Shown piece by piece: positions 2,525 through 37,291 of a stretch of DNA of 64,000 bases (the stretch's first letter is position 1; every line of letters begins with the position of its first letter). The notes beneath the pieces are model-generated. The model was given only the letters and a program-made list of their open reading frames with translations, made no database searches and had not been told where the DNA came from. A program made the translations under genes and the position numbers. Where the stretch lies: positions 1 through 64,000 of IMG/VR virus record IMGVR_UViG_3300042450_000799; one strand, given 5' to 3'. This DNA is from a virus.

Positions 2525-2743
2525 ATGCCTACAGACATTACAATCAACAATATTACTGGATTAGCACCATTTGATATTTATTTATGTGATAACCCGATAA
2601 CAACATGTATCTATATTGACACAATCTCGTCAACACCATATATATTCGAAATCCCATCAATAATGTCAAGTCAAACTGATTTTAATTTAAAAATTGTTGA
2701 TGATAATAGTTGTACTATACTTGAAACCTTAAGTTTACCATGA
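2525..2743 (+). CDS. small Cys-containing beta protein, cassette member 1
   Basis: A 72-residue protein of unknown function. I chose the ATG at 2525 rather than an earlier in-frame start at 2492, because the earlier start would include the TATTTAT motif and an unlike N-terminus. The pattern I-TG-P-YLCD-C-I-TI-P-LP-KI-DD-C is shared with the third gene of the cassette (4739-4969), so the two look like paralogues. It overlaps the next gene by four bases (ATGA), which indicates translational coupling. By position and composition it is probably a virion or fibre accessory protein. Confidence 0.6.
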   Translation: MPTDITINNITGLAPFDIYLCDNPITTCIYIDTISSTPYIFEIPSIMSSQTDFNLKIVDDNSCTILETLSLP

Positions 2744-4734
2744 AATGTAAAGCATATAGAATATATAATGGGGATCTTTCTGACCAAACACAAAGTTTCG
2801 ATAATTGCGATGGTTTAGCATGTGAGATTACTATCCCATCTGATGGTAATTACTTTATAACCGCAGATTCTGACACATTTGTCAATAACCCCCTATTAAC
2901 AATATTCGAATTTGAACCCATTCTCGCATATTCATTCAGTAGTTGTTGTGATGATCAAGTTTTTCATATTCTAGGTAACACTGGTATTTTTTCAGAATCC
3001 CCTGGAAAATCAATTTGTACCACAGAATTCATGAGCCCTTTGGATTGTGGTATATCTACATCCCCAACCAATGGATGTTATTCATTCATTAGTTCTACCA
3101 TACCCGAACTTGCTCTTGGGAGTCAAGTTTATTTAAACTATAATGGTTATTTTGAAGATGGTTGTGTCGAATGTCTTACTCTTTGTGTTCCTTGTTGTAG
3201 ATGTTACCAAGTTGAAGTTGAGGGTTTTGATGGATGTGTTTTAGGATATATTGATTGTGAAACAGGTCTTGAAGTTATTGAAACATTCATAGGTTCAAAT
3301 AATTATGTTTGTTCTCTTGGTGAACCATATGGTTCAGGTGTTTGTCTCAGCCCATTTACAATAACCGATTTAGGTTCATGCTCTTTAACAGAACAATGTA
3401 AGACTTGTTCTGAAACTTACTGTATAACTAATACGGGTAATCTTTATGACGATACATACAATTTAGACGCGGATTATGATGGGTATCAGTCTTGGATAAG
3501 TTCAACGGGTGACTATTACATTTATTATAATATAACTGATAAACAATGGTGTTTATCAAGTAGTTTAGGTGGAACATGTCTTTTATCAGGTAAGTCCCCA
3601 TGTTATTCAAAATGTCCTGACTTATGTGACGAATATTTCTTTGAAGGTACGTGTCCTACAACCACAACAACAACGGTTGCTTGCGTAACTTTTGATTTTG
3701 ACGCAATCTTTGATTGTATGACAGAAGTAACCCCTACACCAACACCCACACCAACTATCACACCAAGTATGACACCAACCCCAAGTTCAACAAGTTATTG
3801 TTCAATGGTTAGTGTTGATGCCACAATATCTGGTTACACTCCAACCCCAACACCAACCCCAACTATTACTCCAACATCCTCTCAAATAATAGTGAGACCT
3901 TGTAATGTATTAGGTGACGTTTCATTTACAACTCTTGAAGGTCACATTGGTTGTCCAAGTAGTAAACAATTTCAAGATTGTGTAACTGGTATGATGTATT
4001 ACACAACCGAACTAGTACCAACCCCTTCTGGTGATACATTGACCGAGTTTATGATTTTCAAAGCATATGTTGATGGAATTCTTAAATGTGTATCATTCGT
4101 TGGAATTAACGATGTTACCATTGGTGTTAATACAATTGATTTAGTAGAAGGCCCAACCGGATATTCAAACTTAGGTGAATGTGTTTTATGTGATGTTATA
4201 TCTAGCCCAACACCGACACCTACACCTACCATGACACCAACACCAAGTGGAATACCTTGTTTTTGTTATGAGATTATTTCTGAAACTGAAACAGCACGTG
4301 AATACGTTGATTGTAATGGGGTTTATTCAACAATATCAATCGATACACCTTTTACACCTTATTACGTTTGTTCATCAGCGCCATTAAACCACCCAGATAC
4401 AATAAACATGAGTATTACAAAACTTGAATTATGTTCTAATGGGATATGTCCTCCACTTGTTTGTAATTGTTATATCGTATCAAACGATTCAACCCAAGGC
4501 CCCGTGGGTCTTACTACCGCTAAAGACGTATCTACAGTAGCTGTAAATCTTGGTATTTATGTTACTTATTATGACTGTGATAATGTGGAACAAACTATTT
4601 ATATAAACCAAAAGGAAGAAACTCAACCATTCTGTTCATTAACAACACCATTTGTACATAGTCCTATTGACCCCACAATAATCCAAATTACCACAATTAC
4701 ATTACTTGGTGATTGTAATTCATGTTCACTGTGA
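2740..4734 (+). CDS. Cys-rich, Thr/Pro-linked virion or fibre protein
   Basis: A 664-residue protein built from Cys-rich modules joined by low-complexity linkers: poly-Thr near residues 306-312 and (TP)n stretches near 330-350, 365-383 and 487-503. Repeated modules contain CYxV or CYxI followed by YxDC, which suggests duplicated small beta domains. No signal peptide or membrane segment is visible. The linkers match those in the minus-strand tail proteins (854, 476, 1082 and 1121 aa), so a tail fibre, decoration or adhesin role is inferred. It is the middle gene of a plus-strand cassette inverted relative to all neighbours. Its linker DNA, rich in CCAACACC units, is a plausible site for recombination. 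Confidence 0.65.
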   Translation: MKCKAYRIYNGDLSDQTQSFDNCDGLACEITIPSDGNYFITADSDTFVNNPLLTIFEFEPILAYSFSSCCDDQVFHILGNTGIFSESPGKSICTTEFMSPLDCGISTSPTNGCYSFISSTIPELALGSQVYLNYNGYFEDGCVECLTLCVPCCRCYQVEVEGFDGCVLGYIDCETGLEVIETFIGSNNYVCSLGEPYGSGVCLSPFTITDLGSCSLTEQCKTCSETYCITNTGNLYDDTYNLDADYDGYQSWISSTGDYYIYYNITDKQWCLSSSLGGTCLLSGKSPCYSKCPDLCDEYFFEGTCPTTTTTTVACVTFDFDAIFDCMTEVTPTPTPTPTITPSMTPTPSSTSYCSMVSVDATISGYTPTPTPTPTITPTSSQIIVRPCNVLGDVSFTTLEGHIGCPSSKQFQDCVTGMMYYTTELVPTPSGDTLTEFMIFKAYVDGILKCVSFVGINDVTIGVNTIDLVEGPTGYSNLGECVLCDVISSPTPTPTPTMTPTPSGIPCFCYEIISETETAREYVDCNGVYSTISIDTPFTPYYVCSSAPLNHPDTINMSITKLELCSNGICPPLVCNCYIVSNDSTQGPVGLTTAKDVSTVAVNLGIYVTYYDCDNVEQTIYINQKEETQPFCSLTTPFVHSPIDPTIIQITTITLLGDCNSCSL

Positions 4735-4985: not shown

Positions 4986-5588
4986 TTATTTCCATATACC
5001 TTCTTGATTCATAAACCCTAGAACACAACAATACGCGTCTGATTGATCAAAATTTTCTTTCTTAAGAGTGTTGTTTCTAGTATAACCCCAAACAATCTGA
5101 GGTTCTCTTTTTGCAACTAAATCCCAAATGACATGTTTCTTATCAATATCTCTCGGTAGACCACCAAATAAAACATATTTACCTTTATCATTTTGTTGAA
5201 CAAGTTCTGGAAACCCCAATTTTCTAGAATTATATGTTGAGATGTAATCAGGTACAATACCTAACACATCATATATTTGTTTTGTAATTAACGTATTAAA
5301 TCTTAATAGGGTTTGTATTGTATACACATTATTACTATTCATTAATGGTTCCTCAATAATAACCTTAGTTATCCCTAAATCTTTATAATCTAAAAGCTTA
5401 GTCTTAAAAATTTCACTCTTAAGAAGTAATTCCTTTATTTTGTTTTCTTCCTTTGGTTTAGGAACTGGTGAGATGTGAGTTAATTCAAGTAATTCTTGGT
5501 TCCCAATGTCAAATAACGCCCATCCAATAGTGCGAGTAGAAACATCTAATCCAAGGACTTTAGGACTTTCTTTAATAGATTTTTTCAT
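4986..5588 (-). CDS. ruvC: RuvC-like Holliday junction resolvase
   Basis: A 200-residue RNase H-fold nuclease that would resolve branched DNA in recombination-dependent replication and before packaging. The acidic quartet is visible: D15 in VLGLDVSTRT, E79/E80 in VIIEEP, and D181/D184 in DQSDAYCCVLG. It is close to the usual RuvC length (about 170 aa). No endonuclease VII-like gene (T4 gp49) is seen in the window, so this may take that role. Its ATG closely follows the stop of the 854-aa structural gene, so it may be expressed late with the tail genes, when branch resolution is needed for packaging. Confidence 0.85.
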   Translation of the reverse strand: MKKSIKESPKVLGLDVSTRTIGWALFDIGNQELLELTHISPVPKPKEENKIKELLLKSEIFKTKLLDYKDLGITKVIIEEPLMNSNNVYTIQTLLRFNTLITKQIYDVLGIVPDYISTYNSRKLGFPELVQQNDKGKYVLFGGLPRDIDKKHVIWDLVAKREPQIVWGYTRNNTLKKENFDQSDAYCCVLGFMNQEGIWK

Positions 5589-5591
5589 ATG

Positions 5592-8156
5592 TTAAATATC
5601 GAATTTAATCAAAAACTGCTGTATGCCCTGTCTTAAAACGGGAGATTGCATTTTTGATATAATCATAAGATTCTTTTTGTCATCGTAAAGACCTATTTCA
5701 CTAACGTAAGATGCGTTACCTTTAGTCCATGTAGGATTTGATGGTACCTGGAATTCGGCTTGTCCTAAATTAATTTTATATTTCATCTCATAGATTGTTG
5801 CTTGGATATCAGTTTCTAATGATCCGTAGAAATAATATTCATCCCCAAAGTTTAAAGATTGTCCAGTTTCACCAACAGGTGTTAATGGGATATAATTATT
5901 TAAATTATAATTAGGAGCATCATCATACTCTTGTTGTGTAATAACAAACGTATTCCCCGTTAATCCATCTTGTGTAATATAACCATTAACCATTGTTGAA
6001 GCTAATTGACTTGTGAAATCAATTGACACCCAATCAGAGGAGTTAGGTCTCGCATTACCCACAACTTTTTGACAAAGAATCTCAAACTTATTAGCCAAGA
6101 ACCCTTGAGTTGCGTCACAGTATATCGGACATATCGATGTTGTGGTTGTTGTTACAGGATTATACGTTGTTTCCATTGTCGTAGTTAGAAAATGGCTAGT
6201 TGTTGTAGTGGTAGTCGGATAATGACTTGTTGTCGTCGTTGTAATTGGATAAAAAGATTGATTTAAACATCCAAACTCACCACCAAATCTAACCGCAACA
6301 TTCTGAGATGTAATCGGACTACAATCAATATTAGGCCCTTGAATTAAAGAGTAATAATTACAATGTAAAGAATCTGTAAATAAATCAGTATTGCTTAATC
6401 TATACGTTACATATAAAGATTCTGTTAACCCTGTTAATATACCAGTAACTGTCAAACTATCGTTCCCACAAGTATTAGGAGTTATTAATGATATTTTAGG
6501 AGATGGTAATGTCCAATTTCTATTTGATTTGTAAGACATTGCGGCTATGATTTCCTCATCATCAATAATAACCAACTTATCATCAGGAAATACTTTACCA
6601 ACTCTATTAGGAATCCCATCAATATTCGCATTTGTGTCCCATAAATGGTAGTATCTCATACCCGGGTTATTCATGTCAACATTCTTAGTTGATTGAAGGT
6701 GATTAACTTGAAAAAGATTTAAGTCTTCGAATCCTGGAGGGTCTACCCAAAATGTTTGTCCATTACAACAATCAGGATTTTTATGCCACATTAACCAAGG
6801 AATATGTACTTTAAAGTTTCTAGCTTCACCAGTTGTGTCAGCAGGGTTTGATGGGTCAAATGGTTCCAACGCAAATTTTTCACCATAAAAGAAATCTACA
6901 GTTTGATTTGTATAATGAATAATCCCAATCGCCTTTTGTTGTTCAGGTTTTACTGTAATTTTATCCCCAAAAGAGTTAAAATAATAAACAGAACTACTAT
7001 CAGTTTGCCCACTACTAGATGCGTATCCAAAGTATTCTTTTGCCCCTAAATAAGCGACAGAACCAAAATTAGTATAATCTTTACTGATTGATGATATTAA
7101 TCCAGCCGGATTTTCTGACCACGGAATATTCATATTCCATATCTTAACATCAAACTCGTCGGTATAACAAACAGATTCGAAATTAATAACATTATCATTC
7201 CAATGACGACTAGGTGTAATACTGTCATACATTGTTGTCATATTTGGTGGGTAAATAATTACTCTACCATAACAAACATTTGTTAAGTTTAAGAAGTTAG
7301 GTGTTGGTCTATCTAAAGTTATCACACCTAAACAAATATTAACAATCCTATATGTTAACATCGAATAACAACTACTCATATCTACCAAACAATCTGGCGG
7401 TGGAGGTAGTGGACATTCTCTACTCGGTGTAGGTGTTAAACAAGGTGTTTTAGAGGGCATTGGTGTTGGTGTTGGAGATTCACATGGAACTGAGTTAGTG
7501 GATGTTGGTGTTGGAGTTGGTGTTGTACCATATGACGCAGTAACTGAAGGTGTTACAGAAATAGTCGGGGTTGGACTTGGGGTTGGAATGTTTGAACAAT
7601 AACAATCTTCCATACCTTTACCATCATAATAAATGGTGATAATGTCTCCAATAGCCGGTTCTCTAACTGAATCAGGATTACTAGGATTACTTATAAGTGT
7701 AATACTATTTGTTCCACCCAAAGAATTCATCTGAACAACATAATTTGCATTAATTGCGTAAAAATTATTAGTTAACGCGCTCCAACTAATTGTACTGTTA
7801 GTTGTATCACCAGTGAAGAATCCTCTCATAACAGCTCTATTGTAAACAGGACTTATTTGAGAATCCATAAATGGAATTCCGTATGTGTTACCAACCACCC
7901 CATCAACATAGTAAGGATATTTTACGTTACTCTTATTTGATTGTGGAATCCCACTTGAATTTTGAGCATTAAAACTCGGTTCTAATATTACAGTATCAAA
8001 TTGATTATAACTTGTCGGTAAAGTATTATACGAAACCTCACTATCCCCGATTTGGAAATAGGAAATGTTAAAATTCCCTTGTGACAATTTTTCTCGTCCT
8101 ACGTCAGTCAATCTTGTATTAACTAACCCTGCAGTATTTTTTATTATAAACGCCAT
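5592..8156 (-). CDS. tail fibre/baseplate-like structural protein with Thr/Pro linkers
   Basis: An 854-residue protein. The N-terminus (NTRLTDVGREKLSQG, then FQIGDSEV) and the C-terminus (SYVSEIGLYDDKKNLMII) together resemble the tail-fibre/collar fold in which the start reads 'T..G...L..G....S....GDSE' and the end 'EIGLYD..GNL'. A long insertion separates them. Residues about 183-255 hold (TP)n, SPTPTP and Cys-Pro segments, and about 637-674 hold poly-Thr blocks (TTTTTS repeated). The region between is Cys- and aromatic-rich. A TATTTAT motif lies five bases upstream of the ATG. The assignment to the tail fibre or baseplate periphery is inferred; receptor specificity cannot be read. Confidence 0.65.
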   Translation of the reverse strand: MAFIIKNTAGLVNTRLTDVGREKLSQGNFNISYFQIGDSEVSYNTLPTSYNQFDTVILEPSFNAQNSSGIPQSNKSNVKYPYYVDGVVGNTYGIPFMDSQISPVYNRAVMRGFFTGDTTNSTISWSALTNNFYAINANYVVQMNSLGGTNSITLISNPSNPDSVREPAIGDIITIYYDGKGMEDCYCSNIPTPSPTPTISVTPSVTASYGTTPTPTPTSTNSVPCESPTPTPMPSKTPCLTPTPSRECPLPPPPDCLVDMSSCYSMLTYRIVNICLGVITLDRPTPNFLNLTNVCYGRVIIYPPNMTTMYDSITPSRHWNDNVINFESVCYTDEFDVKIWNMNIPWSENPAGLISSISKDYTNFGSVAYLGAKEYFGYASSSGQTDSSSVYYFNSFGDKITVKPEQQKAIGIIHYTNQTVDFFYGEKFALEPFDPSNPADTTGEARNFKVHIPWLMWHKNPDCCNGQTFWVDPPGFEDLNLFQVNHLQSTKNVDMNNPGMRYYHLWDTNANIDGIPNRVGKVFPDDKLVIIDDEEIIAAMSYKSNRNWTLPSPKISLITPNTCGNDSLTVTGILTGLTESLYVTYRLSNTDLFTDSLHCNYYSLIQGPNIDCSPITSQNVAVRFGGEFGCLNQSFYPITTTTTSHYPTTTTTTSHFLTTTMETTYNPVTTTTTSICPIYCDATQGFLANKFEILCQKVVGNARPNSSDWVSIDFTSQLASTMVNGYITQDGLTGNTFVITQQEYDDAPNYNLNNYIPLTPVGETGQSLNFGDEYYFYGSLETDIQATIYEMKYKINLGQAEFQVPSNPTWTKGNASYVSEIGLYDDKKNLMIISKMQSPVLRQGIQQFLIKFDI

Positions 8157-8182: not shown

Positions 8183-9613
8183 TTATGTTGCTATTACCGT
8201 ACAACAATTACAACCCGATAATTTTAAATTTGTTATTGAGTATTTTTCATCACTTGTTCCGATATAGCAATTAATTGATTCGTTTTTTGTTACGGAAGTT
8301 ATTGTTGTTAACACTAAAATATCCGTATTAATTATTGTAAATTGATCCCATATTTCACCATTTGAAGTAATATAAACCGTATTTGACTGACACCCAGGGA
8401 CTATACTTGAGGTTTCGGAACTACCAGTTACCTCTCCACTAGGTTTAAAACTTCCCCCATTTAATACTAAGTCACTATTACTTTCAGAAATAGACGATTC
8501 AGAATTTGGTGAAGATTTCGATGTGTTTAAATGGTTTAAATCAAACGTTAATAAAACACCATCAGGTAATGGTGGGAATATCTTAATAGTTGTTTCGTAT
8601 TGTTTTGTTACACTATTATTAGATCTTTCAATAATTTTTGATGTCGTATTTAACCCAACATTATACGTTGTAGGTTTAGACGGTGAATTAATAATAACAC
8701 TTAAACTATTAGTGATTTCATTACTATCCATGGTAATAACACGATAAGTACCAGAACACAAATTATTAAAAATTGGAATATTTTTATAAGTTAATCCTGA
8801 GTTAATAGAATAAGTATATGGAGGTGACCCGCCATTTGCATTAATTGTAATACCACCATCACACCCACAGATTGTTTGATTTTTGGTCACATTCATTGTT
8901 AATGGTGTTATTACTTCATCAACTTTAAATTTACCCAATAATGGGGATTGTCCTGGAAAAGACGTACAATTACCTTCATTAACCATTGCACTACCAGACG
9001 CCCCGATAATTAACCATCCACCATAAACAGGAGGATATGTTGGATTCAAATTTGATATTACATATAATGTTGGTGTTGCTGCCGATACCAACCACTGTGA
9101 TTGGGATGAGTCCCAAATTATTGATTGTAGACTATCATCAGAAACCCAAGTTGGTTTCCCATCATACATTCCATTTGGATTAAAATGTATTTGTTCAACA
9201 ACTATGTTATCACCTATAAGTATTTCTGTGGTCATACACATCTCATATTCATTCGGATATGGTGAAGTGGTACTCGTACTTGTGGTAGTTGTGGTTGGAG
9301 TTATCCCAGTTAAAACACAAACAGTATTTGCAGTAAAATCACCATAATAATCTGTAACTGTCGACCCATATGATCCGGCACTCAAACCATAGATAATTGG
9401 CCCAACGCCCCCGTTTGACCAAGTAACAACATAAGGTGGAGTACCCCCCGTTATAATTAAAGAAGCAATTCCATCTGTCGAATCCGGTTGTGTTGGATGA
9501 GAGACATTACAATCAACACCCATTTGAAATAATGTTATAACATTACATTCATTAATCCCTGTTGGTATACAAGACGTTTCTCCAGTAATTTGATATGGGG
9601 GTTTATTACTCAT
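8183..9613 (-). CDS. SprB-repeat adhesin-like virion protein
   Basis: A 476-residue protein with at least two SprB-type repeats. One is near residues 45-80 (IITGGTPPYVVTWSNGG) and one near 245-290 (CGCDGGITINANGG, SPPYTYSINSG). They are separated by a poly-Thr linker near residues 103-125 and a Cys-containing domain. SprB repeats are known from Bacteroidetes surface adhesins such as the gliding adhesin SprB. No signal peptide is visible, which fits a virion protein rather than a secreted one. It lies between a fibre-like gene and a glycosyltransferase. The TATTTAT motif is five bases upstream. Confidence 0.65.
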   Translation of the reverse strand: MSNKPPYQITGETSCIPTGINECNVITLFQMGVDCNVSHPTQPDSTDGIASLIITGGTPPYVVTWSNGGVGPIIYGLSAGSYGSTVTDYYGDFTANTVCVLTGITPTTTTTSTSTTSPYPNEYEMCMTTEILIGDNIVVEQIHFNPNGMYDGKPTWVSDDSLQSIIWDSSQSQWLVSAATPTLYVISNLNPTYPPVYGGWLIIGASGSAMVNEGNCTSFPGQSPLLGKFKVDEVITPLTMNVTKNQTICGCDGGITINANGGSPPYTYSINSGLTYKNIPIFNNLCSGTYRVITMDSNEITNSLSVIINSPSKPTTYNVGLNTTSKIIERSNNSVTKQYETTIKIFPPLPDGVLLTFDLNHLNTSKSSPNSESSISESNSDLVLNGGSFKPSGEVTGSSETSSIVPGCQSNTVYITSNGEIWDQFTIINTDILVLTTITSVTKNESINCYIGTSDEKYSITNLKLSGCNCCTVIAT

Positions 9614-9628: not shown

Positions 9629-10609
9629 TTACAATTGATTTTTTACAATCCTTTTCATTATCTCAACGTATTTAATTGTTGAACTATTCGTATCTACAAA
9701 ATCAAAATAATTAATATTCTCCCTTAATTTATCTAAAGGATTAACATTAATAAATTCCCCTTTATAAAACTTAGTTTCTTTTAAATTGTGAGTTACTCCC
9801 GCCATATGTAAGATGGGGTGTTTTTCATAACTGGTAATATTATCAGTCGCCCACGAAAACCCCAATTCATCCGTTATCTTTGTCTCAATCCCAAAGTCCC
9901 AAAGGTTCCATAATAAAGACCACATCTCAGCAGTCCAAAACTGTATTTCACCAGGACTTATCGGAAATCTCTTTTGATAACTCATCATTTGATCATATAG
10001 AGGTGTACAATCTTCATAAATTTTATTCCACATAAATGAATCAGTATTTTTTATAATATATTGACCACCACCTGAGTTTTCTTGATTACATTTAACACAG
10101 TCAACTGATACCCCAACAACATCTACCATCTCTTGAATTAATTGTCCTTTATTAGAAGTGGGATGATGTTTTTCATATCGTTCACAACAATCATTAATAT
10201 AATTATAACCAATGTACCCAATTGTGTCTGACAAATAAGTTACATCGTCAGATAACAACGTATCAAAGTCCGGTAATTTTCTAAAGATAATATCAGCATC
10301 ATGTAAGAAAAAACATTTTCCAAACTCCGGAAATTGTTCTAACCATTTATGTATTAGATATGGTTTAATATTTGGGATATAATGCTTTTGACGTCTATCA
10401 TCCAAATAATGATGGACATTTATCCCCATCGATTTAAGCTCCATCGATTCTTTGGTTGGTTCAGTTTTCCCATTAACTATTGAAAATATAACGTGGATCT
10501 GACCAGGGTCGATACCCATTTCTATAAAATTATGTGAATACACTTTAACTTGCCAATGAAAATATGGAACATCGGGTTGTGCGGTCACAAATACTAAATC
10601 ATTCTTCAT
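9629..10609 (-). CDS. GT-A glycosyltransferase, HPAT-like
   Basis: A 326-residue predicted glycosyltransferase. The N-terminus LVFVTAQPDVPYFHWQ fits the pattern TA-x4/5-PY-x2-WQ that I recall from hydroxyproline O-arabinosyltransferases and related peptidyl glycosyltransferases. A GT-A metal-binding DxD is present in FLHDADIIFR (D104/D106). Later motifs are ENSGGGQYIIKN and HMAGVTHN. It has no signal peptide or membrane segment, so it would act in the cytoplasm. It sits between two genes whose products carry Thr/Pro-rich or poly-Thr linkers, so O-glycosylation of virion proteins is the attractive inference. Modification of a host glycan or another substrate is possible. No close TATTTAT is present; a TATTTAA variant is nearby. 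Confidence 0.65.
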   Translation of the reverse strand: MKNDLVFVTAQPDVPYFHWQVKVYSHNFIEMGIDPGQIHVIFSIVNGKTEPTKESMELKSMGINVHHYLDDRRQKHYIPNIKPYLIHKWLEQFPEFGKCFFLHDADIIFRKLPDFDTLLSDDVTYLSDTIGYIGYNYINDCCERYEKHHPTSNKGQLIQEMVDVVGVSVDCVKCNQENSGGGQYIIKNTDSFMWNKIYEDCTPLYDQMMSYQKRFPISPGEIQFWTAEMWSLLWNLWDFGIETKITDELGFSWATDNITSYEKHPILHMAGVTHNLKETKFYKGEFINVNPLDKLRENINYFDFVDTNSSTIKYVEIMKRIVKNQL

Positions 10610-10690: not shown

Positions 10691-13600
10691 TTAAGTTTGT
10701 GTTGGGGTTGGTGTTGGGGTTGGGGTTGGTGTTGGTAGTAAACAACCTAGTTCAACCATATCACCATCAACTTCTTTAGGGGCAGAATTAACATAAACAT
10801 TATTATTAGTTGGGATATATACCCCAAATGATGTACTAGATAAGGCAATTGTTGACACAACCGTATTTGTTATTGTATTGATAATAAGAACACTTTCCGG
10901 ATCAAATTGATTAACATAAAGGTATCCATTTGATGGGTTATATGTTGAGTTAACTGGAGCTCCAGTTGCCGGTATTGTGATTGTCACATCAGTATTAATA
11001 TCGATTACCGTAATAGTATTATCACCAGTATTCGTAACATAAATGTAAAGAGGGGTTTCAATAATTGATACTGTATTTAGAAACCCAACCGGTATTATGG
11101 AAACTACCGTATTTGTGGTTGTATCAATTTTACTAACATTATTATCTAATTCATTCGCAACATAAACATAGTTGTTAATTGATGAATAAAGAATTGTACT
11201 AGGACTATTACCAACAGGTATTGACAACACAACAGTATCTGTAACTGGATCAACAACATCAACTACGTCAAAATTTGTAATCGATACGTAAACATACCCA
11301 TTAATTGGATCATATGCTAAACCATTAGATCCAATATAAGCTGTTCCGGTTAACGTAACTGATGTTAAGACACTATTAGTTGTTGTATCAATAACATTTA
11401 AAAATACGCTAAGATTATCTGTAACATATAACTTATTAACCCCATTTACATATAGAGTTCCCACCCATAAACTACCAGTACTAATTGTTGATATAACCAT
11501 ATTCGTTGATGTATCAATAACGCTAACTGTATCATCACCACTATTAGGAACGTAAATACATCCATTATCAGAATTATATTGGATAGGACAATTATTACCA
11601 AGACCTACGTTAATTGTTGTTATAACGGTATTTGTTATAGTATCGATTACACTGACAGAACTACTATCCGTATTATTAACATAAAGATACCCATTTGTTG
11701 ATACGTAAACCGCAGATTGAGAAACTATCCCAACACCTATCGTATCTAATATTGTAACATCATAACATGGTAAGGGGGTGGGGGTTGGTGTTGGGGTTGG
11801 TTCACATGTTTGACACGCAATATCATAAGAAATTTTTAAAGATATTTTAACATCACCATCAATTAAAGAAATGTCTGAATTACAATCTGTATTAATTACG
11901 ATCATATTATTTAAATAATCGATTAGTACTCCCCCAATACCACCATATGAAATCAAAATCTCTTTTACAACATCATAAAATAAACTATCTAAAGGAAATT
12001 CGGTTAAAGTAGACCCAGTGTAGAAAGATTGAATTTGAGTATCTCCATTAACAGTTACTTCCGCGTAAAATATTGTTTGATTTAATATACAATTGGTATC
12101 ACCACTAGTTAAATCATAAAAACCTTCGGTTAACATTTGTTGAGGGCCTTTCCTAATAGTTTGACCTGTATTCATAAAATCACCATCACAAATATTATAT
12201 GTCTGATATGATGATAATAGATTAAAACCATTAATAATTATATCTCTAGTTTGAACACACCCATTTGAATCCGTAACTGTTAAGGTGTAAGTCCCCGCAG
12301 ATAAAGTATTAACATTTAATCCCGTTTGACCATTAACATTTAAACTCCAATCTAAAATAAACGGTGGTTCTCCATTTGTAATAAATGCACTTATAGTCCC
12401 ATTACTTCCGTTAGTTGAGTCAGTTCCAGCTAAAACAAAATCAAGAGTACTCGAATTATCAATAGTAAACGGTAATATTTGAACACATCCATTTGAATCC
12501 GTAACTGTTGCGGTATAATTACCCGAAGATAAGTTAGTGAAAGTATACGTTAAATCACTTGTAAAAACAAAATGACCATCAATTTCAAACTTAAATGGCC
12601 CAACCCCACCTTCTGTTATATTCAAAGTAACTGAACCATCGTTTGAATCACATGTTGTACCAATGGTATCGACCGATAATTCAAATAACGTTATATTATC
12701 AATTGTATATTCCTGAGTAAACACACAAGGCCCATTATCCGAAATTGTTAAAGTATAATCTCCAGATGATAACCCGTTAAACGTCCATGTTACAAAACTC
12801 CCCGAAACTGTTGTAGAGTTACTTAGGGAATCTATCAATGTATATGTATAGGGAGGTGATCCCCCAAAAATTACAACACCAATTGATCCTGAAATATTAT
12901 TACACACTGAATTTACAACATTAACTGAGGTTACAGAAAGACCCCCCGGTGTTAATAGTGTAACTGAGGCTATAAAATTACATAACCCCGCGTCAGTTAC
13001 TTGAACTGAGAATATACCAGCTGGCACTCCTGTGAAAGTATGTGTCGAAGAAAAACTAACCGCAACAGACCCATTGGAACCTGAATAATAATATGGTGAG
13101 GTTCCACCTGTTATTGTTATTGTTACTTCTCCATCTGATGAGAAACAAGATGGTGTAACAACAGTGAATGCCCCTAAACCAACATTAGGTACTGTCGTTA
13201 CAGTTACCCCACTACTTTGTACACATCCAGAACCATCAGTTACCGCAATTGTGTATGGGCCTGCCGTTAATCCCGTTATTGATTGTGTAGTTTGACCACC
13301 TGGTGACCATAAATAAGTATAAGGTGGTGTTCCCGTTAACCCTGTTATATGTATTGATCCCGAATTAACCGCACAACCCGCATCATTTACAACATATAAC
13401 CCAATTTCAAGTGGAAGTGAGTCTTTGATGATACACGTTTCAGATTTACCCGTACACCCACCTCCATCATCAGCAACCACATAATATGTACCCGCAGATA
13501 AACCTCCAAAACTATAAGACGAAACAATACTAACTCCTGATGTAATATAACCTGAAGTCATTTCATATAAACCAAAACTACCTGTTCCATATAAATTAGT

Positions 13601-13939
13601 TGTTGTGGCGGTTAAAGAACCATTGTCTAATCCGCATACGGTATTCGTTTGACTCGTAATACTAACACATGTTCCTGTTGATATATAGACATTAACTGGT
13701 AAGATAGTATTCGTTGGTGAGCAACTATCAATAATATTAAATGTATATGTTCCTCCTGATAACCCAGTGTTACTATAATTTGTAACTCCTGAACCTAATG
13801 GGATTGTTGTTGTATAAGGACTAATCCATTGTATTGTATAATCAGGAGCGATCCCTAAAATATCAAGACTAAACGCCCCTGATGAATCATTCGAACAGTC
13901 TCCTGTTAGACTAATAGCATATGTTAAAGTACATGACAT
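10691..13939 (-). CDS. SprB-repeat plus YVTN beta-propeller adhesin-like protein
   Basis: A 1082-residue modular protein. Residues 1 to about 570 contain roughly seven SprB-like repeats, each with a Cys-start followed by G-S-I/V and G-x-PPYTY. About 570-700 is a separate domain ending in Cys-rich CQTCE. A (TP)n linker lies near 710-725. Residues 725-1060 hold seven YVTN-type blades (VIDTxTNTVxxxIxVG), enough for a seven-bladed propeller. The last 15 residues are (PT)n. It starts one base into the stop of the upstream baseplate gene (TAATG), so it is made with the baseplate. A receptor-binding or adhesive role at the tail tip is inferred. Confidence 0.7.
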   Translation of the reverse strand: MSCTLTYAISLTGDCSNDSSGAFSLDILGIAPDYTIQWISPYTTTIPLGSGVTNYSNTGLSGGTYTFNIIDSCSPTNTILPVNVYISTGTCVSITSQTNTVCGLDNGSLTATTTNLYGTGSFGLYEMTSGYITSGVSIVSSYSFGGLSAGTYYVVADDGGGCTGKSETCIIKDSLPLEIGLYVVNDAGCAVNSGSIHITGLTGTPPYTYLWSPGGQTTQSITGLTAGPYTIAVTDGSGCVQSSGVTVTTVPNVGLGAFTVVTPSCFSSDGEVTITITGGTSPYYYSGSNGSVAVSFSSTHTFTGVPAGIFSVQVTDAGLCNFIASVTLLTPGGLSVTSVNVVNSVCNNISGSIGVVIFGGSPPYTYTLIDSLSNSTTVSGSFVTWTFNGLSSGDYTLTISDNGPCVFTQEYTIDNITLFELSVDTIGTTCDSNDGSVTLNITEGGVGPFKFEIDGHFVFTSDLTYTFTNLSSGNYTATVTDSNGCVQILPFTIDNSSTLDFVLAGTDSTNGSNGTISAFITNGEPPFILDWSLNVNGQTGLNVNTLSAGTYTLTVTDSNGCVQTRDIIINGFNLLSSYQTYNICDGDFMNTGQTIRKGPQQMLTEGFYDLTSGDTNCILNQTIFYAEVTVNGDTQIQSFYTGSTLTEFPLDSLFYDVVKEILISYGGIGGVLIDYLNNMIVINTDCNSDISLIDGDVKISLKISYDIACQTCEPTPTPTPTPLPCYDVTILDTIGVGIVSQSAVYVSTNGYLYVNNTDSSSVSVIDTITNTVITTINVGLGNNCPIQYNSDNGCIYVPNSGDDTVSVIDTSTNMVISTISTGSLWVGTLYVNGVNKLYVTDNLSVFLNVIDTTTNSVLTSVTLTGTAYIGSNGLAYDPINGYVYVSITNFDVVDVVDPVTDTVVLSIPVGNSPSTILYSSINNYVYVANELDNNVSKIDTTTNTVVSIIPVGFLNTVSIIETPLYIYVTNTGDNTITVIDINTDVTITIPATGAPVNSTYNPSNGYLYVNQFDPESVLIINTITNTVVSTIALSSTSFGVYIPTNNNVYVNSAPKEVDGDMVELGCLLPTPTPTPTPTPTQT
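12251..12509. repeat. near-identical DNA repeats inside SprB modules
   Basis: A stretch of about 31 bases beginning TTGAACACA at 12251 recurs at 12479 with one mismatch, a spacing of 228 bases (76 codons). Both copies encode the module boundary VTDSNGCVQ. Most other modules have diverged at DNA level, so this pair looks recently duplicated or homogenised. Confidence 0.6.
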
Positions 13940-18827: not shown

Positions 18828-20015
18828 TTATATTTTTATAACATTGAAAAACTTAAACCCATACTTTTCAAGGTCACCAACATTATCAACTTCCCCTAAT
18901 CTCTCAAGTCTCTCTAATGCCGAGTTTTTACCTCTCTCAATGAAGACGTTGGATTGTATTTCTGCTTCATCAATTACATTTAATAATACTTCATTTTTTG
19001 TTATTGCCGAACAAACCATCATGTCAGGGGTCATTCCAGAAGAATAAACCGTAAATACAGTGGTTCCATCGTTATAATCATAGTAGTTAATGTCATTAAT
19101 TGTATAGGCGGTGTATAGGTTATCGATAGATGGCCCAAAAAATGTCCCAACATTACCCGAGGTACCTGTCACCTGAATACCTATTTTATATTTCCCACCA
19201 AATAAACCAGGATTATATTTACTACCGTATTGAGTTAAGTCATTCATCGTTGAATTTGTATACCCCGTAATTAGGAATGGAACTGTGGTGTAATTATAAC
19301 TTGACTGATCATATACATCACAATTAGAATCCCCCGTAAATAAATAATCATACATAAATGATGTTCCTGTCCAATTCCCCCCCGCAGGTGTGAAATACGC
19401 AGTTCCATTAGGGTTAGTGGCAATAATATTCGTAAATGGTACCGTAACATCTTTTTTAACCACATTATAACCCCACGGACTCATCCCAGACATTGTAATA
19501 GTATAGTTACCATTAGAGGCATAAGTGTGAGCATAATAATTAGGAGCTGTATAAGGAACTAATTCTAATGGTGAACCATCTCCCCAATCAATTTGGTAAG
19601 TCGCAAATGATAAATACTTTTTAAATTCAGACTCTGAAGTATTATAAAAATAATAGGTATAAGGTGAAAATGTTGTTGCGGAAAATAAAAAATTAGTCAT
19701 TGTTTCTTTTTGTATGACCATTCCATCAAACACGGAATAATATCCAATATCAATTGTGGTTTCAGTTAATAATATAGGTATGGTTAATCCTGTTAATAAA
19801 GAATCCCCACTTGTACCACCACTCACAATTTGTGACATTCCCGAATACACCCGAGTATATCCAGTGTATTGACTAGTTGTGGTAGTTGTCGTTATATCAC
19901 AACAAGGATCCCCACTTAAATTAAATTGTGATGTACCAGCATCGTAAGATGCAAGAAATAAATCTCCATTAATAACTTCCGGGGAAATTCGTATACTATA
20001 ATATCTATCGTCCAT
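18828..20015 (-). CDS. PKD-domain baseplate-operon protein
   Basis: A 395-residue protein. Near the N-terminus is Cys-Cys-Asp-Ile followed by poly-Thr (about residues 37-47), the same linker type as in the fibre proteins. A PKD-like domain lies at about 140-185: WGDGSP followed by HTYASNGNYTITMSG. The C-terminal 60 residues (ITKNEVLLNVIDEAEIQS and ERGKNSALERLERLGEVDN) look like a conserved docking segment. It overlaps its upstream neighbour by one base (TAATG). A baseplate-attached surface protein is inferred. The gene order suggests that it was originally next to the 302-aa gene before the HNH gene arrived. Confidence 0.6.
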   Translation of the reverse strand: MDDRYYSIRISPEVINGDLFLASYDAGTSQFNLSGDPCCDITTTTTTSQYTGYTRVYSGMSQIVSGGTSGDSLLTGLTIPILLTETTIDIGYYSVFDGMVIQKETMTNFLFSATTFSPYTYYFYNTSESEFKKYLSFATYQIDWGDGSPLELVPYTAPNYYAHTYASNGNYTITMSGMSPWGYNVVKKDVTVPFTNIIATNPNGTAYFTPAGGNWTGTSFMYDYLFTGDSNCDVYDQSSYNYTTVPFLITGYTNSTMNDLTQYGSKYNPGLFGGKYKIGIQVTGTSGNVGTFFGPSIDNLYTAYTINDINYYDYNDGTTVFTVYSSGMTPDMMVCSAITKNEVLLNVIDEAEIQSNVFIERGKNSALERLERLGEVDNVGDLEKYGFKFFNVIKI

Positions 20016-30369: not shown

Positions 30370-32229
30370 TTATTTTATTTCACATCCGTCAGCCCCACAC
30401 GCAATTTCACCACTTAGGTCTGTTTCATCAGAATATTCAATAACTTTAGTCAAATCAATCGAATGTATTTTAGTTACCATAGCCTCAAATTCTTCTTTAG
30501 TACAATCGGTAAAAGGTGCTTGAATATATGATCCTCCGTCGTGGGGTAAAACTGATAGACCATTATAAAAATCTTTGTTATTCCACATCCATTCTCCCGC
30601 TAAATCCCAATCCTCAGGTTTTAAACTGATTGTGGCAGACACGTTATGTAAATTAGAACCACCTCTATGTCCGGGTCTAACCCACTCTTGAGTTACTCTT
30701 TTAACTCTCTCCAATAATTGGAATGGACTTTCCGTTCTCAATATTGCCCCTTCGGGTGCCTTTTGTGGTACCGAAATAACTGCGGTATCGTGAGGTCTAA
30801 AGAATTCATCCTCAACTAGTTCTGGATGATTTTGACTTAAATATTGATAGATAGATTCATTTTTTCCAACACGAATTCGTCTAATATAATAATCGTTATG
30901 CCAAGCGTGGATTCCTGAAGATGTTCCCAAAGTTAATGATGTTGTTCCCGCAGGTTTTACCGTAGTTGTTCTTGCAGATTTATTAATCCCAATTAATTTA
31001 GCAACTCTTTCATTTTCTTCTTTAACAATCTTAGCCGATTCTTTCATATTATATCCCAACACAACACCTGAACCAATCCCAGTCATAGAGACCCCAATCA
31101 GGGCATCTTTTTCAGTAGTTCTTTTCCAAACATCTCTTAAATAGTGGAAGTTAGTGTAACCTGCTTGTAATGTTCCAATGAATGAAGCTGCTCTAACACG
31201 ATTATTTAAATCTTCTTGAGATTCAATATCAGAAACATTTACCTCACATAAGTTACAAAATTGATTTGGTCTCAATGCGATTTCACAACACGGATTCGTT
31301 CCCCAATCTTTATCATTTGAAAAATAAATTCCTGGTTCACCTGCTCCTGAAGCTTCAATACGTTTCCATAAATCCATGAAGAAGTCTTGAGTAATTTTAT
31401 GTCTCAATAATACTGCCGAATTGTTAGCTCTACCTCTTTGTGGATTTGTTTCCCACCAACTACCTGATTTACAAGAAATCATTTCTTGGTCATCAGCACT
31501 GAATAATGAAATTAATGCTGCTCGTCTAATTCCACCCGCAAGAACCGCATCGGCAATATGACAAACCATATCATGAACCTCTATTGGTGTCAATCTATCC
31601 CCATCTTCTTTTGATTCCAAAAGACCTTTCAATTTATGTAAACAATCTTTAAGTGGTTGTGGACCCGGAGCTTTTCCCCCAGAGGTTACAAGTTGAGCAC
31701 CTTTATGTCTTATGTCAGAGAAATCAAAATCGGGTGTTGATATTTGTTCACCAAAATAAGATTTAAATAACACTTTAATCGCGTCAGCCCACCCTTCAAT
31801 TGAGTCACTAATTAGATATCTTCTTTTTCTAGTTTCACTCGGTTTTCTAATCTCAGGTAGTTTTTCTACGTGATGTTTCTGTACTGAATATCCAACACCC
31901 GTTCCACCTAATAACAAGAACATTGATTCAGAAAACGCCTCCAAGGAATCAATTGGCAAATATGCACAATTATAGATCCTGTTTGGAGAAATTTCAATTG
32001 GTTTTCCACCAAATTGCATTGACCTCATTGAGGGTAATACTTTTTTATCATACACATATTTGTACACCTCTTTAATCTCACTCTCAAGTGATGGGTATTT
32101 TTTAATGTGCATATTAATGTTTCGGGTTACTAACTCTTCCCAAGTTTCACGTCTATTTAATTCAGGTACAAATTTTGCGTACTTCATATAGACAGTTAAG
32201 TCCGATAAAATCTTTTGTGATGCGTCCAT
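30370..32229 (-). CDS. nrdJ: class II (B12-dependent) ribonucleotide reductase
   Basis: A 619-residue enzyme that would reduce ribonucleotides to deoxyribonucleotides using adenosylcobalamin. It is of the monomeric RTPR type, slightly shorter than the lactobacillus enzyme (about 740 aa). Visible features are the N-terminal active-site Cys in NRIYNCAYLP (near residue 88), the loop TNPCCEIALRPNQFCNLCEV (near 310), GGTGVGYSVQ, VKPAGTTSLTLGTSSG, and a C-terminal redox pair C611/C616 in ACGADGCEIK. No NrdB-like small subunit is nearby, consistent with class II. It sits between the DnaB helicase and DUF5522 in the replication operon, so it supplies dNTPs for phage replication. Confidence 0.88.
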   Translation of the reverse strand: MDASQKILSDLTVYMKYAKFVPELNRRETWEELVTRNINMHIKKYPSLESEIKEVYKYVYDKKVLPSMRSMQFGGKPIEISPNRIYNCAYLPIDSLEAFSESMFLLLGGTGVGYSVQKHHVEKLPEIRKPSETRKRRYLISDSIEGWADAIKVLFKSYFGEQISTPDFDFSDIRHKGAQLVTSGGKAPGPQPLKDCLHKLKGLLESKEDGDRLTPIEVHDMVCHIADAVLAGGIRRAALISLFSADDQEMISCKSGSWWETNPQRGRANNSAVLLRHKITQDFFMDLWKRIEASGAGEPGIYFSNDKDWGTNPCCEIALRPNQFCNLCEVNVSDIESQEDLNNRVRAASFIGTLQAGYTNFHYLRDVWKRTTEKDALIGVSMTGIGSGVVLGYNMKESAKIVKEENERVAKLIGINKSARTTTVKPAGTTSLTLGTSSGIHAWHNDYYIRRIRVGKNESIYQYLSQNHPELVEDEFFRPHDTAVISVPQKAPEGAILRTESPFQLLERVKRVTQEWVRPGHRGGSNLHNVSATISLKPEDWDLAGEWMWNNKDFYNGLSVLPHDGGSYIQAPFTDCTKEEFEAMVTKIHSIDLTKVIEYSDETDLSGEIACGADGCEIK

Positions 32230-32251
32230 AATTTTTCTTTTGTTTTATTTA

Positions 32252-33628
32252 TTATTGTTTTTCTCTTTCTTTTCGTTTGTCAATCAAATCTTTGATTCGT
32301 TGTCGATTTCTTTCTTCTGTTTGTTCTTCAAGACCTAAAAATGTAACTGATGACTCTGTATCAATCTCTAACATACCATTATCAAATTTACAATTTTCAA
32401 ATACAACACCATCATCCCCAATTCTTGATTTAGTTATCGCAATGGTTGCCAATTTCATTTCTTTTTGAGTTAATGACTTAGCAATTGAAATGATGACGTG
32501 ACCAACTTGAGCTTTTTTAATTGAACCCCCCATTTGATCTGTTGTTACAACATCTGATGAGATTGAACTTCTATTTCCTTGTGTTGCCGTCCATCCCACT
32601 AAATCCATCTCATGACACATCGCCTCAAATGCTCTCATTACAGATCCTTCAGATTTCCATTCATCACCAAGATTTTTATTAGGTACCACACAATCAATAT
32701 AATCAAGTAACACCATGTCAATCTTGATACCATCTGCCATCATTTTTCTAATTTGACCTTTGATTTGTAACATAGTTACAGTGTCTGACGGTAATTTTTT
32801 AAGTATTAACTTATTCGGCATAGAGTCTTTGATCTCTTTAACTTTAGCCATTACCTCTTCTTTCTTCACAGTTAACTCATCTGGATGTACTTTCGTCCAT
32901 AATGTGATGTGTTTTCTCTGAATGATTTTAGGGTTATCCTCAAAAAATATTTGAAGAACATTATACCCTAAGTTAAATGCGTGGTTAGATATTTTAGTTA
33001 ACATCGTTGATTTTCCAACACCAGTTGGTGCTAATACAACTCCGATTTCACCTCTCGCCAACCCACCTTTTAAGAGACGATCAATACCTGGGATTCCCAT
33101 TGGTATTGGATGTCTATAATCTTCGTTTAAAACCTCATCCAAGTTGTTGAAAACGTCTTCCATACCATCTTCTCTTTCCCCTACTTGTAAGGCCTCTCTA
33201 ACCAAAGTTTCCAAAGTGTCATAGTTCTCAAACTCACCACCATCAATCACTTTTTGAGCCTTAGTAATCGCTTTCTGCAACTCTTGTTGTTTACAGAATT
33301 TCAACGCTTTTTCTTGAACAAATTCTTGTCCATCAGTTGGAGCGTCTTTAATTTTTGTTAGAGTATCTAATACAATTTTAGACGCTAACTCTTGTTGTAA
33401 TTCTGATTTGGTAATCTGATCTAAAGTATCAAACGTTGGAGTATGTTCATATTTCATATAATACTCCTTAACCATTTGGATAATTATTTTGAAATATTTA
33501 TTCTCAAAATAATTACTCTCAATCACATCAATAATTGATCTTGAGAAGTCTTTATCGATTATGATTTGATTTAATAATTGTATCTGAAAAGTACTCCCTA
33601 GATAATCGAAATTTTTGTTTGATGACAT
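32252..33628 (-). CDS. dnaB: replicative DNA helicase, DnaB/gp41 type
   Basis: A 458-residue RecA-fold hexameric helicase. The N-terminal helical domain is followed by MGIPGIDRLLKGGLARGEIG and a Walker A motif APTGVGKST (near residues 200-208). A Walker B strand lies in MVLLDYIDCVVP, with a later DQMGGSIKKAQVGHVI segment. T4 gp41 is 475 aa. It would unwind the fork ahead of the polymerase and work with the primase at 1542-2441. Its stop is 22 bases before the ribonucleotide reductase ATG. It follows a conserved unknown gene and the FEN nuclease in one operon. Confidence 0.92.
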   Translation of the reverse strand: MSSNKNFDYLGSTFQIQLLNQIIIDKDFSRSIIDVIESNYFENKYFKIIIQMVKEYYMKYEHTPTFDTLDQITKSELQQELASKIVLDTLTKIKDAPTDGQEFVQEKALKFCKQQELQKAITKAQKVIDGGEFENYDTLETLVREALQVGEREDGMEDVFNNLDEVLNEDYRHPIPMGIPGIDRLLKGGLARGEIGVVLAPTGVGKSTMLTKISNHAFNLGYNVLQIFFEDNPKIIQRKHITLWTKVHPDELTVKKEEVMAKVKEIKDSMPNKLILKKLPSDTVTMLQIKGQIRKMMADGIKIDMVLLDYIDCVVPNKNLGDEWKSEGSVMRAFEAMCHEMDLVGWTATQGNRSSISSDVVTTDQMGGSIKKAQVGHVIISIAKSLTQKEMKLATIAITKSRIGDDGVVFENCKFDNGMLEIDTESSVTFLGLEEQTEERNRQRIKDLIDKRKEREKQ

Positions 33629-33644
33629 ATAATTTTAGTATTGT

Positions 33645-34115
33645 TTAAGATAAGTATTCAACCTTTGTCGGAATTCCAAGATACTCATATGTTAAATTTT
33701 TCTCCGAAAAAATGTCAGTCAATTCCGAAAGTATACTTTTTATGTGCGGACGTATATCCACGGTGTATCTTATCTTTGGCGGGAAGATTTTCGCATCCAT
33801 CTGTCTATGACAAATTGTCATGTCCCCCTCCTTAATAAAAATGTTAAAATGTTCAGGCCCATCTGTATTTGAAGTTTCAATCATCATAGGATTCTGCTTA
33901 ATTTCATAAGAATTATCCAATAAATAACTTATCGACTTCATCTTTAAAACCCCCTCCAACGTTCCCTTCAAATCATAAAGATACTCATAAAATTCAAGCG
34001 AATTCTTAGCATCAGAATTATAATCCCTAACATTAAAAAATCTTTGGACAATAATATTGTCATTAACCATCATCAAAAATTCTAGTTTGGTTGTTTCTTG
34101 TTCTTTCATAATCAT
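33645..34115 (-). CDS. conserved T4-like protein in replication operon
   Basis: A 156-residue protein of unknown function. Segments such as RFFNVRDYNSDAKNS, NPMMIETSNTDGPEHFNIFI, TICHRQMDAK and KIRYTVDIRPHI recall a family I associate with T4-like marine phages, where it sits among replication genes; this is memory, not a search. Two ATGs (34115 and 34109) are possible starts. It lies between the FEN nuclease (stop three bases upstream) and DnaB, so it is probably cotranslated with them and linked to replication. Confidence 0.7.
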   Translation of the reverse strand: MIMKEQETTKLEFLMMVNDNIIVQRFFNVRDYNSDAKNSLEFYEYLYDLKGTLEGVLKMKSISYLLDNSYEIKQNPMMIETSNTDGPEHFNIFIKEGDMTICHRQMDAKIFPPKIRYTVDIRPHIKSILSELTDIFSEKNLTYEYLGIPTKVEYLS

Positions 34116-34117
34116 TG

Positions 34118-35125
34118 TTATTTTTGTTTAAATTTTTCTTTTTCTTTTCTTGTTAATTTTAAAAATGGGGTCAAGAAACTTACCCAATTATTATCCCCCT
34201 TAGGTAGATATTTAAAAAGACCATCCTCCATCATCATCTTAATAATGTTCCTATGCCCCCTACCATCAGGGTCTAAAGATTCTTTGTAATATAATTCAAC
34301 GAGATCCCTACCTTCATCAGTAATAAGAGGGTTTGATAAATCAACCAATATTTTATTCGTTTCATAGAACTTTTCCCCGAAAATACCTTCTTTTGTTTTT
34401 CCACTTACCAGATTATTTAAGACAACACTCTTACTCTGTTCTTCTAATAATTTTTTACCTCTCAGTAAAATATCAGTGAAATTTATCTCCGAATCAAGTA
34501 TTTCAGGAAATAATTTAATTAAAGTTTTTCCACCTAACAAACTAATACCATCAATATTGTCCGAAGTATCACCCGCAAGAATTTTAAAGGTTTTAACATT
34601 ATAATGAGGGATTGAACAATCTTTAAACCCAATATTATCTCCGAATCTATAATGTGTTTTAGAATTAGGAGAATAGACACTCACAGATTTTGAAATAAGT
34701 TGAGTTAAGTCTTTATCACTCGAAAATATGGTTTTCTCCTCATCTAAAGATATTTGACAGTAATAAGCTATTAGATCATCCGCCTCTGAATTTTCAACCT
34801 CTAATTGTCGAATAAACATCTCCTCAAGATATTGTTTAACCCTAGATTTTTGTTTGTTAAATGAATCTGTCTTCACCTCACTATCAGGCGAAGATTTACG
34901 ATTCATCTTGTACTTGGGGTAAATTAATTTTCTTTGGGTTGAACTAGTATCACTATCCCAAAAAACCATAACTTTATTAAAATTAGTCTCTTCCAAAAAC
35001 TTACGAATCGTATTAAGAAAATGCCAAATTCCACCAACATGATCAACTCCGTTATAAAAATCTTTTACCCCATTAATTCCTATCTTCAATAGGTTGTTCC
35101 CGTCAATAACTAACGTTTTGGTCAT
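34118..35125 (-). CDS. rnh: 5'-3' exonuclease / RNase H (FEN family)
   Basis: A 335-residue FEN-family nuclease; T4 RNase H is 305 aa. Acidic motifs include VIDGNNLLK at the N-terminus, MVFWDSD, ENSEADDLIAYYC, FSSDKDLTQLI and LAGDTSDNIDGI followed by GGKTLIK (the helix-hairpin-helix region). It would remove RNA primers and flaps from lagging-strand fragments. It lies between an HNH gene and DnaB. The end of the gene is Lys/Glu-rich. Confidence 0.88.
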   Translation of the reverse strand: MTKTLVIDGNNLLKIGINGVKDFYNGVDHVGGIWHFLNTIRKFLEETNFNKVMVFWDSDTSSTQRKLIYPKYKMNRKSSPDSEVKTDSFNKQKSRVKQYLEEMFIRQLEVENSEADDLIAYYCQISLDEEKTIFSSDKDLTQLISKSVSVYSPNSKTHYRFGDNIGFKDCSIPHYNVKTFKILAGDTSDNIDGISLLGGKTLIKLFPEILDSEINFTDILLRGKKLLEEQSKSVVLNNLVSGKTKEGIFGEKFYETNKILVDLSNPLITDEGRDLVELYYKESLDPDGRGHRNIIKMMMEDGLFKYLPKGDNNWVSFLTPFLKLTRKEKEKFKQK

Positions 35126-35146
35126 TTGTGTTTTTTAGATTCGTTA

Positions 35147-35761: not shown

Positions 35762-35903
35762 TTCTAATATACTCTTTTAATAGTTTATTAACAAGAGAAG
35801 ATAAGTTTATAGATTTATCCTTAAAGTATTGTGGTAACTCGGGATCAATAGACACCGCCAATTTTACTTTCTTTTTTTCTTCTTCAACCTTTCTTCTCCC
35901 CAT
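35739..35903 (-). CDS. ribbon-helix-helix small DNA-binding protein
   Basis: A 54-residue protein beginning MGRRKVEEEKKK, then a ribbon-helix-helix pattern: VKLAVSIDPELPQYF (strand and helix 1) and INLSSLVNKLLKEYI (helix 2). RHH proteins bind DNA as dimers and usually repress transcription. The ATG at 35903 is preceded by a TATTTAT motif at four bases; an upstream TTG in frame is less likely. It has the same length as the plus-strand RHH gene at 59592. There is no toxin gene next to it, so a phage regulator is more likely than an antitoxin. Confidence 0.65.
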   Translation of the reverse strand: MGRRKVEEEKKKVKLAVSIDPELPQYFKDKSINLSSLVNKLLKEYIRNGDKSLY

Positions 35904-35907
35904 ATTA

Positions 35908-35914
35908 ATAAATA
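35908..35914 (-). promoter_or_regulatory. TATTTAT late-type motif, RHH gene
   Basis: TATTTAT on the coding strand in ATATTTATTAAT, four bases before the ATG at 35903. It lies inside an otherwise early-looking operon. Confidence 0.45.
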
Positions 35915-35952
35915 TCACCAAATAACTAAAAAGTATAATTATTTATATTTTA

Positions 35953-36936: not shown

Positions 36937-37009
36937 CTTTACCTTTTTTTTGTTTTTTTAATATCTTTCTACATGTCTTCCGTTAAGGAGATAGTATTTG
37001 ATTTTTTGG

Positions 37010-37231: not shown

Positions 37232-37258
37232 ATATTATTTTTTAATGTTAAAGAATAA

Positions 37259-37285: not shown

Positions 37286-37291
37286 AATAAG

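Follow-up and report, generated by a model that had tools for sequence, protein, structure and literature searches.

A GT-A glycosyltransferase family of phages as the probable O-glycosylating enzyme of threonine runs on virion proteins

What does a glycosyltransferase encoded in a phage genome modify, and can its acceptor be recognized from the genes around it? The question is raised by one open reading frame in the stretch of 64,000 nucleotides analysed here (the window), which is part of a 75,871-base IMG/VR virus record (G000) and carries tail sheath and baseplate wedge genes. The first-pass annotation, made from the letters of the DNA, took this ORF for a glycosyltransferase akin to the plant hydroxyproline O-arabinosyltransferases (HPAT), with proline-rich virion segments as a reasonable peptidyl target.

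The glycosyltransferase gene, its family and its predicted fold

The gene under study is the following:

9629–10609, minus strand: phrog_4417 glycosyltransferase (GT), 326 aa, ATG start, with D104/D106, H268xxG271 and K283 conserved

Both features on which the first reading was built, the N-terminal pattern TAxxxxPYxxWQ (TAQPDVPYFHWQ) and the DxD motif D104-A-D106 (within HDADIIF), are present in the translated ORF. The protein matches the phrog_4417 profile over its full length (E 2.4e-70; residues 7–321 against profile positions 3–291 of 293). No Pfam or NCBIfam profile matched it at E ≤ 10; the GT8 profile was likewise unmatched at this threshold, and it was absent from the matches of 22 members of the family. 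A single tblastn query confirmed 254 related stretches in viral contigs, and an alignment query at least 575. GTs of the phrog_4417 type were found in 74 of 50,697 phage records, at about 30–37% identity among the 60 matches listed; the host genera of GT-bearing phages are Enterococcus, Lactobacillus, Lactococcus, Staphylococcus, Arcanobacterium and Chryseobacterium, and most records of the family that we inspected annotate the gene as hypothetical. Bacterial genomes contributed 37 GT loci, nearly all of them from Firmicutes by title.

A loss of the DxD motif in homologues, which would have spoken against the assignment, was not found, as D104 and D106 are invariant in all 74 aligned members; so, with one gap, are H268, G271 and K283 in 73 of the 74. 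A 22-row alignment shows just three invariant positions in the N-terminal string (Q11, F17 and W19), and since the PY of this string is replaced in relatives from Firmicutes phages (e.g., CQPAIxRFxWEL), the HPAT-looking string is a feature of the window clade and not of the family. The window ORF is a real conserved gene. Many GTs from Bacillaceae-type prophages (L103–L124) have a C-terminal extension of about 60 residues that the shorter members from Firmicutes phages do not have.

The AlphaFold2 model of the window GT, built from the 74-sequence alignment, had a pLDDT of 96.9 and a pTM of 0.93. In a Foldseek search of the PDB the top ranks were taken by UGGT (2.6e-7), WbbM, glycogenin and xyloside xylosyltransferase, with query TM-scores mostly of 0.35–0.47. 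VIA-align gave a Z of 15.3 for glycogenin (rmsd 3.5 Å, 227 residues aligned, 11% identity), and of 14.3, 14.1 and 13.6 for UGGT, LgtC and GlyE, respectively, with identities of 6–12% among the rows listed. The clear relatives in BFVD were an uncultured phage protein (34% identity, TMq 0.88) and Orf49 of Lactobacillus phage LP65 (22%, TMq 0.71), below which GT8-annotated and other glycosyltransferases were ranked. The window protein is thus predicted to have a GT-A glycosyltransferase fold with a DxD metal motif, and the glycosyltransferase part of the earlier reading is borne out by the model together with the invariant DxD. Because of these structural matches we class the protein with the GT-A enzymes, its fold being akin to that of GT8/GT24 (which we take to be the numbering of the nearest-fold enzymes), in a family of its own. 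The fold and the DxD are common to glycogenin, LgtC, UGGT and pneumococcal GlyE, but the low identities, the TM-scores and the unmatched GT8 profile set the phrog_4417 GT apart from them. Enzymes of GT8 carry the C-terminal motif HxxGxxKPW; H268xxG271 and K283 recall it in sequence, but the spacing to the lysine differs. The phrog_4417 entry in PHROGs v4 is listed with unknown function; here its full-length window member is given a predicted GT-A fold and a likely acceptor.

Threonine runs in proteins encoded near the glycosyltransferase

Ten annotated phages were examined for gene order. The GT gene lies directly 3' of the annotated major tail gene in phiFL1A, Bacchae, 1706 and iLp84, and directly 3' of the annotated major head/capsid gene in bIL285 and 4995_1, that is, immediately after such a gene in six of the ten; in TPWB06 and SA2 one small ORF stands between the major tail gene and the GT, and in VPE25 and MA9V-3 the GT follows genes annotated as hypothetical. 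This position can be understood from the neighbours themselves, since they bear C-terminal threonine runs. Six or seven threonines and about two further residues close the major tail protein (MTP) and the major capsid protein (MCP) of two loci, L106 and L109 (both proteins being named by position and cluster), and also a connector-like protein of L106. In Firmicutes-type phages, non-homologous capsid, tail-tube, connector and decoration proteins have a common C-terminal tail of this kind, e.g., TTTTTTTxx.

To count such runs we defined a T5 run as five or more consecutive threonines and clustered the GTs at 85% identity, which gave 89 loci. A nearby protein has a T5 run at 80 of them, and the GT proteins of the 89 clusters have none. 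In the second group of loci, made up of phage isolates, prophages and bacterial genomes with their viral-contig relatives, a T5 run lies within 25 residues of a C-terminus at 40 of 41 loci. The threonine codons of the runs are mixed, which argues for selection at the protein level and disfavours microsatellite slippage as the origin of the runs.

The window itself holds nine T5 runs in 20,158 aa, spread over six ORFs. These, and the gene upstream of the GT, are:

8183–9613, minus strand: 476-aa product of the next gene downstream of the GT; SprB repeat; residues 105–116 form the poly-Thr linker TPTTTTTSTSTT; homologues in GT loci; likely acceptor
5592–8156, minus strand: 854-aa protein; T5, T6 and T5 starting at residues 639, 648 and 669, and Thr-Pro tracts; likely acceptor
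39231–45890, minus strand: 2219-aa protein ending in VPTTTTTTTP-stop (T7 at 39237–39257); C-terminal poly-Thr tail, likely acceptor
56102–59467, minus strand: 1121-aa tail sheath (phrog_23); T5 run at residue 290, T6 run at residue 314; likely acceptor
2740–4734, plus strand: 664-aa protein; T6 at residue 307, Thr-Pro tracts; possible acceptor
18828–20015, minus strand: 395-aa protein; T6 at residue 42; possible acceptor
10691–13939, minus strand: 1082-aa product of the gene upstream of the GT; SprB repeats; Thr-Pro tracts, also at the C-terminus (TPTPTPTPTPTQT); no T5 run

The 1082-aa protein also gave weak beta-propeller matches besides its SprB repeats. Elsewhere in the window, a RuvC-like resolvase (4986–5588) adjoins tail genes, and a block at 30370–38155 encodes ribonucleotide reductase, a DnaB-like helicase, an exonuclease, a UvsX-like protein and a single-strand binding protein. 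Outside the window, at about 73263–75464 of G000, near-identical copies of a 33-base stretch lie on the minus strand (at 73263, 74190, 74910 and 75432), and these recurrences past position 64000 suggest a long repeat array.

For the window clade, 80 loci were fetched through the conserved gene upstream of the GT, and the 57 with at least 6.5 kb downstream were used. T5 runs were present at 38 of the 50 loci with the GT and at one of the seven without it, and Thr-Pro/Thr-Ser tracts at 36 of the 50 and six of the seven, respectively. The presence of these tracts is independent of the GT, and we therefore rejected them as acceptors. With them falls the proline-rich rationale that had been offered for the target; what is retained of that claim is a peptidyl acceptor on the virion, which the gene context and the contrasts support. 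The GT was absent elsewhere on all eight GT-less contigs tested, and no T5 run occurred in the 143,434 aa of the five large GT-less contigs, which are the five of the seven GT-less loci that were read whole (the remaining two are fragments of 24–26 kb). Taken protein by protein, the tests were not significant because few GT-less homologues remain: T5 runs were found in 35 of 42 homologues of a single protein with the GT vs one of three without it (p 0.10), and in 25 of 49 vs one of five for another (p 0.35). Homologues of the 1082-aa protein had T5 runs in two of 58 cases with the GT and in none of 22 without it.

Homologous proteins with and without the glycosyltransferase, and diverged pairs

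Two contrasts compared homologous tail proteins from loci with and without the GT. In the first, an MTP profile from which the threonine tail had been removed matched 72 times, in 65 of the 397 genomes searched from one order; 56 rows were read after 12 with in-frame stops and four that were partial, at a contig edge or weakest were dropped. Five of the 56 loci carry the GT, four of which were already known from discovery, and the 51 GT-less loci were new. By a loose rule the MTP is threonine-tailed at 5/5 loci with the GT vs 2/51 without it, both of the latter having scattered threonines in C-terminal domains; by the strict rule of a T5 run the counts are 4/5 vs 0/51. A threonine tail was also found on the MCP at 5/5 loci vs 0/16 (13 of these 16 being close homologues above 500 bits), and on the connector at 5/5 vs 0/13. 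Close homologues part at the C-terminus, e.g., FGVPYP-STSTTTTTTTAAV with the GT and FGTTYP-TAIPEA without it. The second contrast applied another tail-protein profile to 395 genomes from a second order, where 60 of 86 rows were read, best E-values first, skipping stop-bearing rows and one of two identically scored rows of G450. Threonine tails were found at 3/3 loci with the GT vs 1/57 without it, the exception (L415) being a protein that stops at a contig edge in a genome with the GT close to the beginning of a different contig. When both contrasts are pooled, 8/8 tail proteins with the GT and 3/108 without it are threonine-tailed, two of the three having scattered threonines and one a contig break. 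At the level of sequence association this is a strong result: the threonine tail on homologous MTP, MCP and connector proteins goes with the presence of the GT.

The exceptions deserve separate consideration. The first motif was missing at 11 of the 89 loci (L046, L049, L050, L051, L054, L066, L127, L203, L209, L222 and L223). At seven of these, T5 runs were found elsewhere on the contig (G016, G013, G012, G014, G017, G018, and G011 within its first 40 kb); L054 lies on a 20-kb contig that has the GT but lacks any T5 run. At L222 and its relative L225 the protein directly before the GT ends in TTVxP repeats, and at L223 the gene before the GT has a threonine-rich tail. Two neighbours of LP65 Orf49, whose identity is 22%, end in repeats of the TTTETQTQTQ type, and one of them is annotated as structural by 2-D MS. 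Diverged GTs thus appear, from these sequences, to pair with diverged tails (TTVxP, and TTTETQTQTQ in LP65).

The reciprocal search, starting from the tails, gave no match for a tail pattern with a fixed spacer. A second tail pattern was found on seven contigs, with the GT on two and absent from G009 and four fragments of 9–20.5 kb, which are too few contigs to weigh much. On G009 a prophage connector (L407, 161–466) ends in TTTTTTGV (T6), and there is no phrog_4417 member on this 35.7-kb contig; its tail is possibly an orphan tag, served by another GT, or left behind by a lost enzyme. In the short phage contigs L305–L308 the encoded tails or linkers are extremely rich in Ser/Thr, and no GT was found on these fragments of 9–20.5 kb.

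Two chromosomal relatives do not adjoin poly-Thr. One, the motif-less chromosomal locus L127, is a frameshifted homologue in an Arachidicoccus MAG (G001; L127 5995–10797, L408 8991–16090), whose neighbours are another glycosyltransferase (Glyco_transf_7C), a LanC-like protein, a C39-peptidase transporter and also small peptides that resemble GG-leader peptides. This is an apparent RiPP or peptide-natural-product cluster, judging by its genes, and its product is possibly a glycosylated peptide. Since the homologue adjoins precursor-like peptides, much as the GT of phrog_4417 phages lies near tagged proteins, a peptide acceptor may be met here again, although the cluster differs from the phage loci in being non-phage and in its frameshift. 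In another genome of the same phylum (L607, 1501–3813) the GT domain is the N-terminal part of a 770-aa chromosomal protein, the rest of which had no Pfam match. Both relatives are consistent with a peptidyl acceptor or with a part in building glycans.

Proposed function and alternative explanations

Taken together, the predicted fold, the conserved DxD, the gene context and the association of the GT with threonine tags in matched homologues make it very probable that this is a metal- and nucleotide-sugar-dependent GT-A enzyme, encoded among structural genes, that O-glycosylates threonine runs on virion proteins. The enzyme's acceptor in Firmicutes-type phages would be a transferable C-terminal tag (six or seven threonines and a few further residues) carried by MCP, tail tube, connector or decoration proteins; in the window clade it would be internal threonine linkers and some C-terminal tails, the tail sheath included. 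The product would be a sugar coat over head and tail surfaces that may serve in shielding or adhesion. Catalysis, O-linkage to threonine, the use of one enzyme for all tagged proteins and the biological role are what we infer from this evidence. It is also likely that we are dealing with a portable writer-and-tag system, in which the enzyme reads a short low-complexity threonine sequence and not a fold, enzyme and tag drift jointly into distinct codes (T6–7, TTVxP, TTTETQTQTQ), and members of the family also occur in bacterial peptide-natural-product clusters. An enzyme of this kind would therefore let unrelated head and tail proteins join the glycan coat by gaining a tail.

Several other explanations have to be weighed. 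A true relative of plant HPAT/SGT enzymes, arabinosylating or galactosylating proline-rich (hydroxylated) virion segments, would account for the N-terminal pattern, and the two proteins can be aligned weakly in register (SPYNQWQ/VPYFHWQ, PWAFVQWLE/PYLIHKWLE, EPDHVF/HDADIIF). However, the HPAT profile PF23452 (GT95) had no match at E ≤ 10 in the window GT, was absent from the matches of the 22 aligned members and had none in the whole of G000. The HPAT reference was a single Arabidopsis sequence, confirmed as an HPAT by 428.8 bits to PF23452; hhalign of the phrog_4417-family profile against it gave a probability of 0.6% and an E of 0.098, six of 60 shuffled HPATs scored as high, and the global alignment, of only four columns, was uninformative. 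A scan of viral contigs with the HPAT query gave one stretch that matched a pattern and none that was confirmed, phmmer found no PDB relatives of HPAT with which the folds could be compared, and PF23452 had no matches in 395 genomes of the phylum of the Arachidicoccus MAG, where the built-in controls gave none either, so that this zero does not show absence. Since, moreover, the PY is not conserved and Thr-Pro tracts are as common without the GT, we consider this explanation exceedingly unlikely, and the kinship proposed in the first-pass annotation is rejected as unsupported, though not disproved. The short N-terminal string and a peptidyl acceptor are what the two kinds of enzyme have in common; HMMER and hhalign detected no homology, and the likely acceptor here is threonine runs, not hydroxyproline.

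It could also be that the GT is a GT8-type second-step enzyme acting on a tail primed by a host or another phage enzyme. LgtC, GlyE and the Skp1 galactosyltransferase, which are among the nearest folds, are sugar-to-sugar enzymes, and the Arachidicoccus relative sits with a second GT. Such a partner is absent from the annotations of ten phage loci, a scan that covered named and not hypothetical genes, and the threonine tail follows the phrog_4417 GT alone across unrelated hosts, which makes a second-step role unlikely. Alternatively, the GT may modify a non-virion target (a host wall polymer, teichoic acid or phage DNA), the threonine tails being a trait that these phages have independently of it. 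Glycosyltransferases of phages that act on DNA or on the host serotype are known (PMC12619734), but the matched MTP, MCP and connector homologues are tailed only with the GT, the GT sits at capsid and tail positions of the gene order, and a diverged GT goes with a diverged tail. We thus find this very unlikely and favour O-glycosylation of threonine runs on virion proteins.

Systems of this kind are already known, since in mycobacteriophage virions capsid and tail tube subunits are reported to carry glycans at their C-termini (Freeman et al. 2023, as cited in PMC12619734 and PMC13313380). Those sugars are placed where the poly-Thr tags sit in Firmicutes-type phages; mycobacteriophages are, by name, not among the 74 phage records of the phrog_4417 family. 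No description of poly-Thr tails with a phage glycosyltransferase was found in the open-licence PMC papers searched, and within this literature the pair of enzyme family and tag appears undescribed. The analysis gives a likely function and acceptor to a widespread phage family without an assigned function, and sugar-coated virion proteins may become predictable from their C-termini alone. If this holds true, a short tag and a single enzyme would make a compact O-glycosylation tool, and would offer a simple route to asking what virion glycans do for phages.
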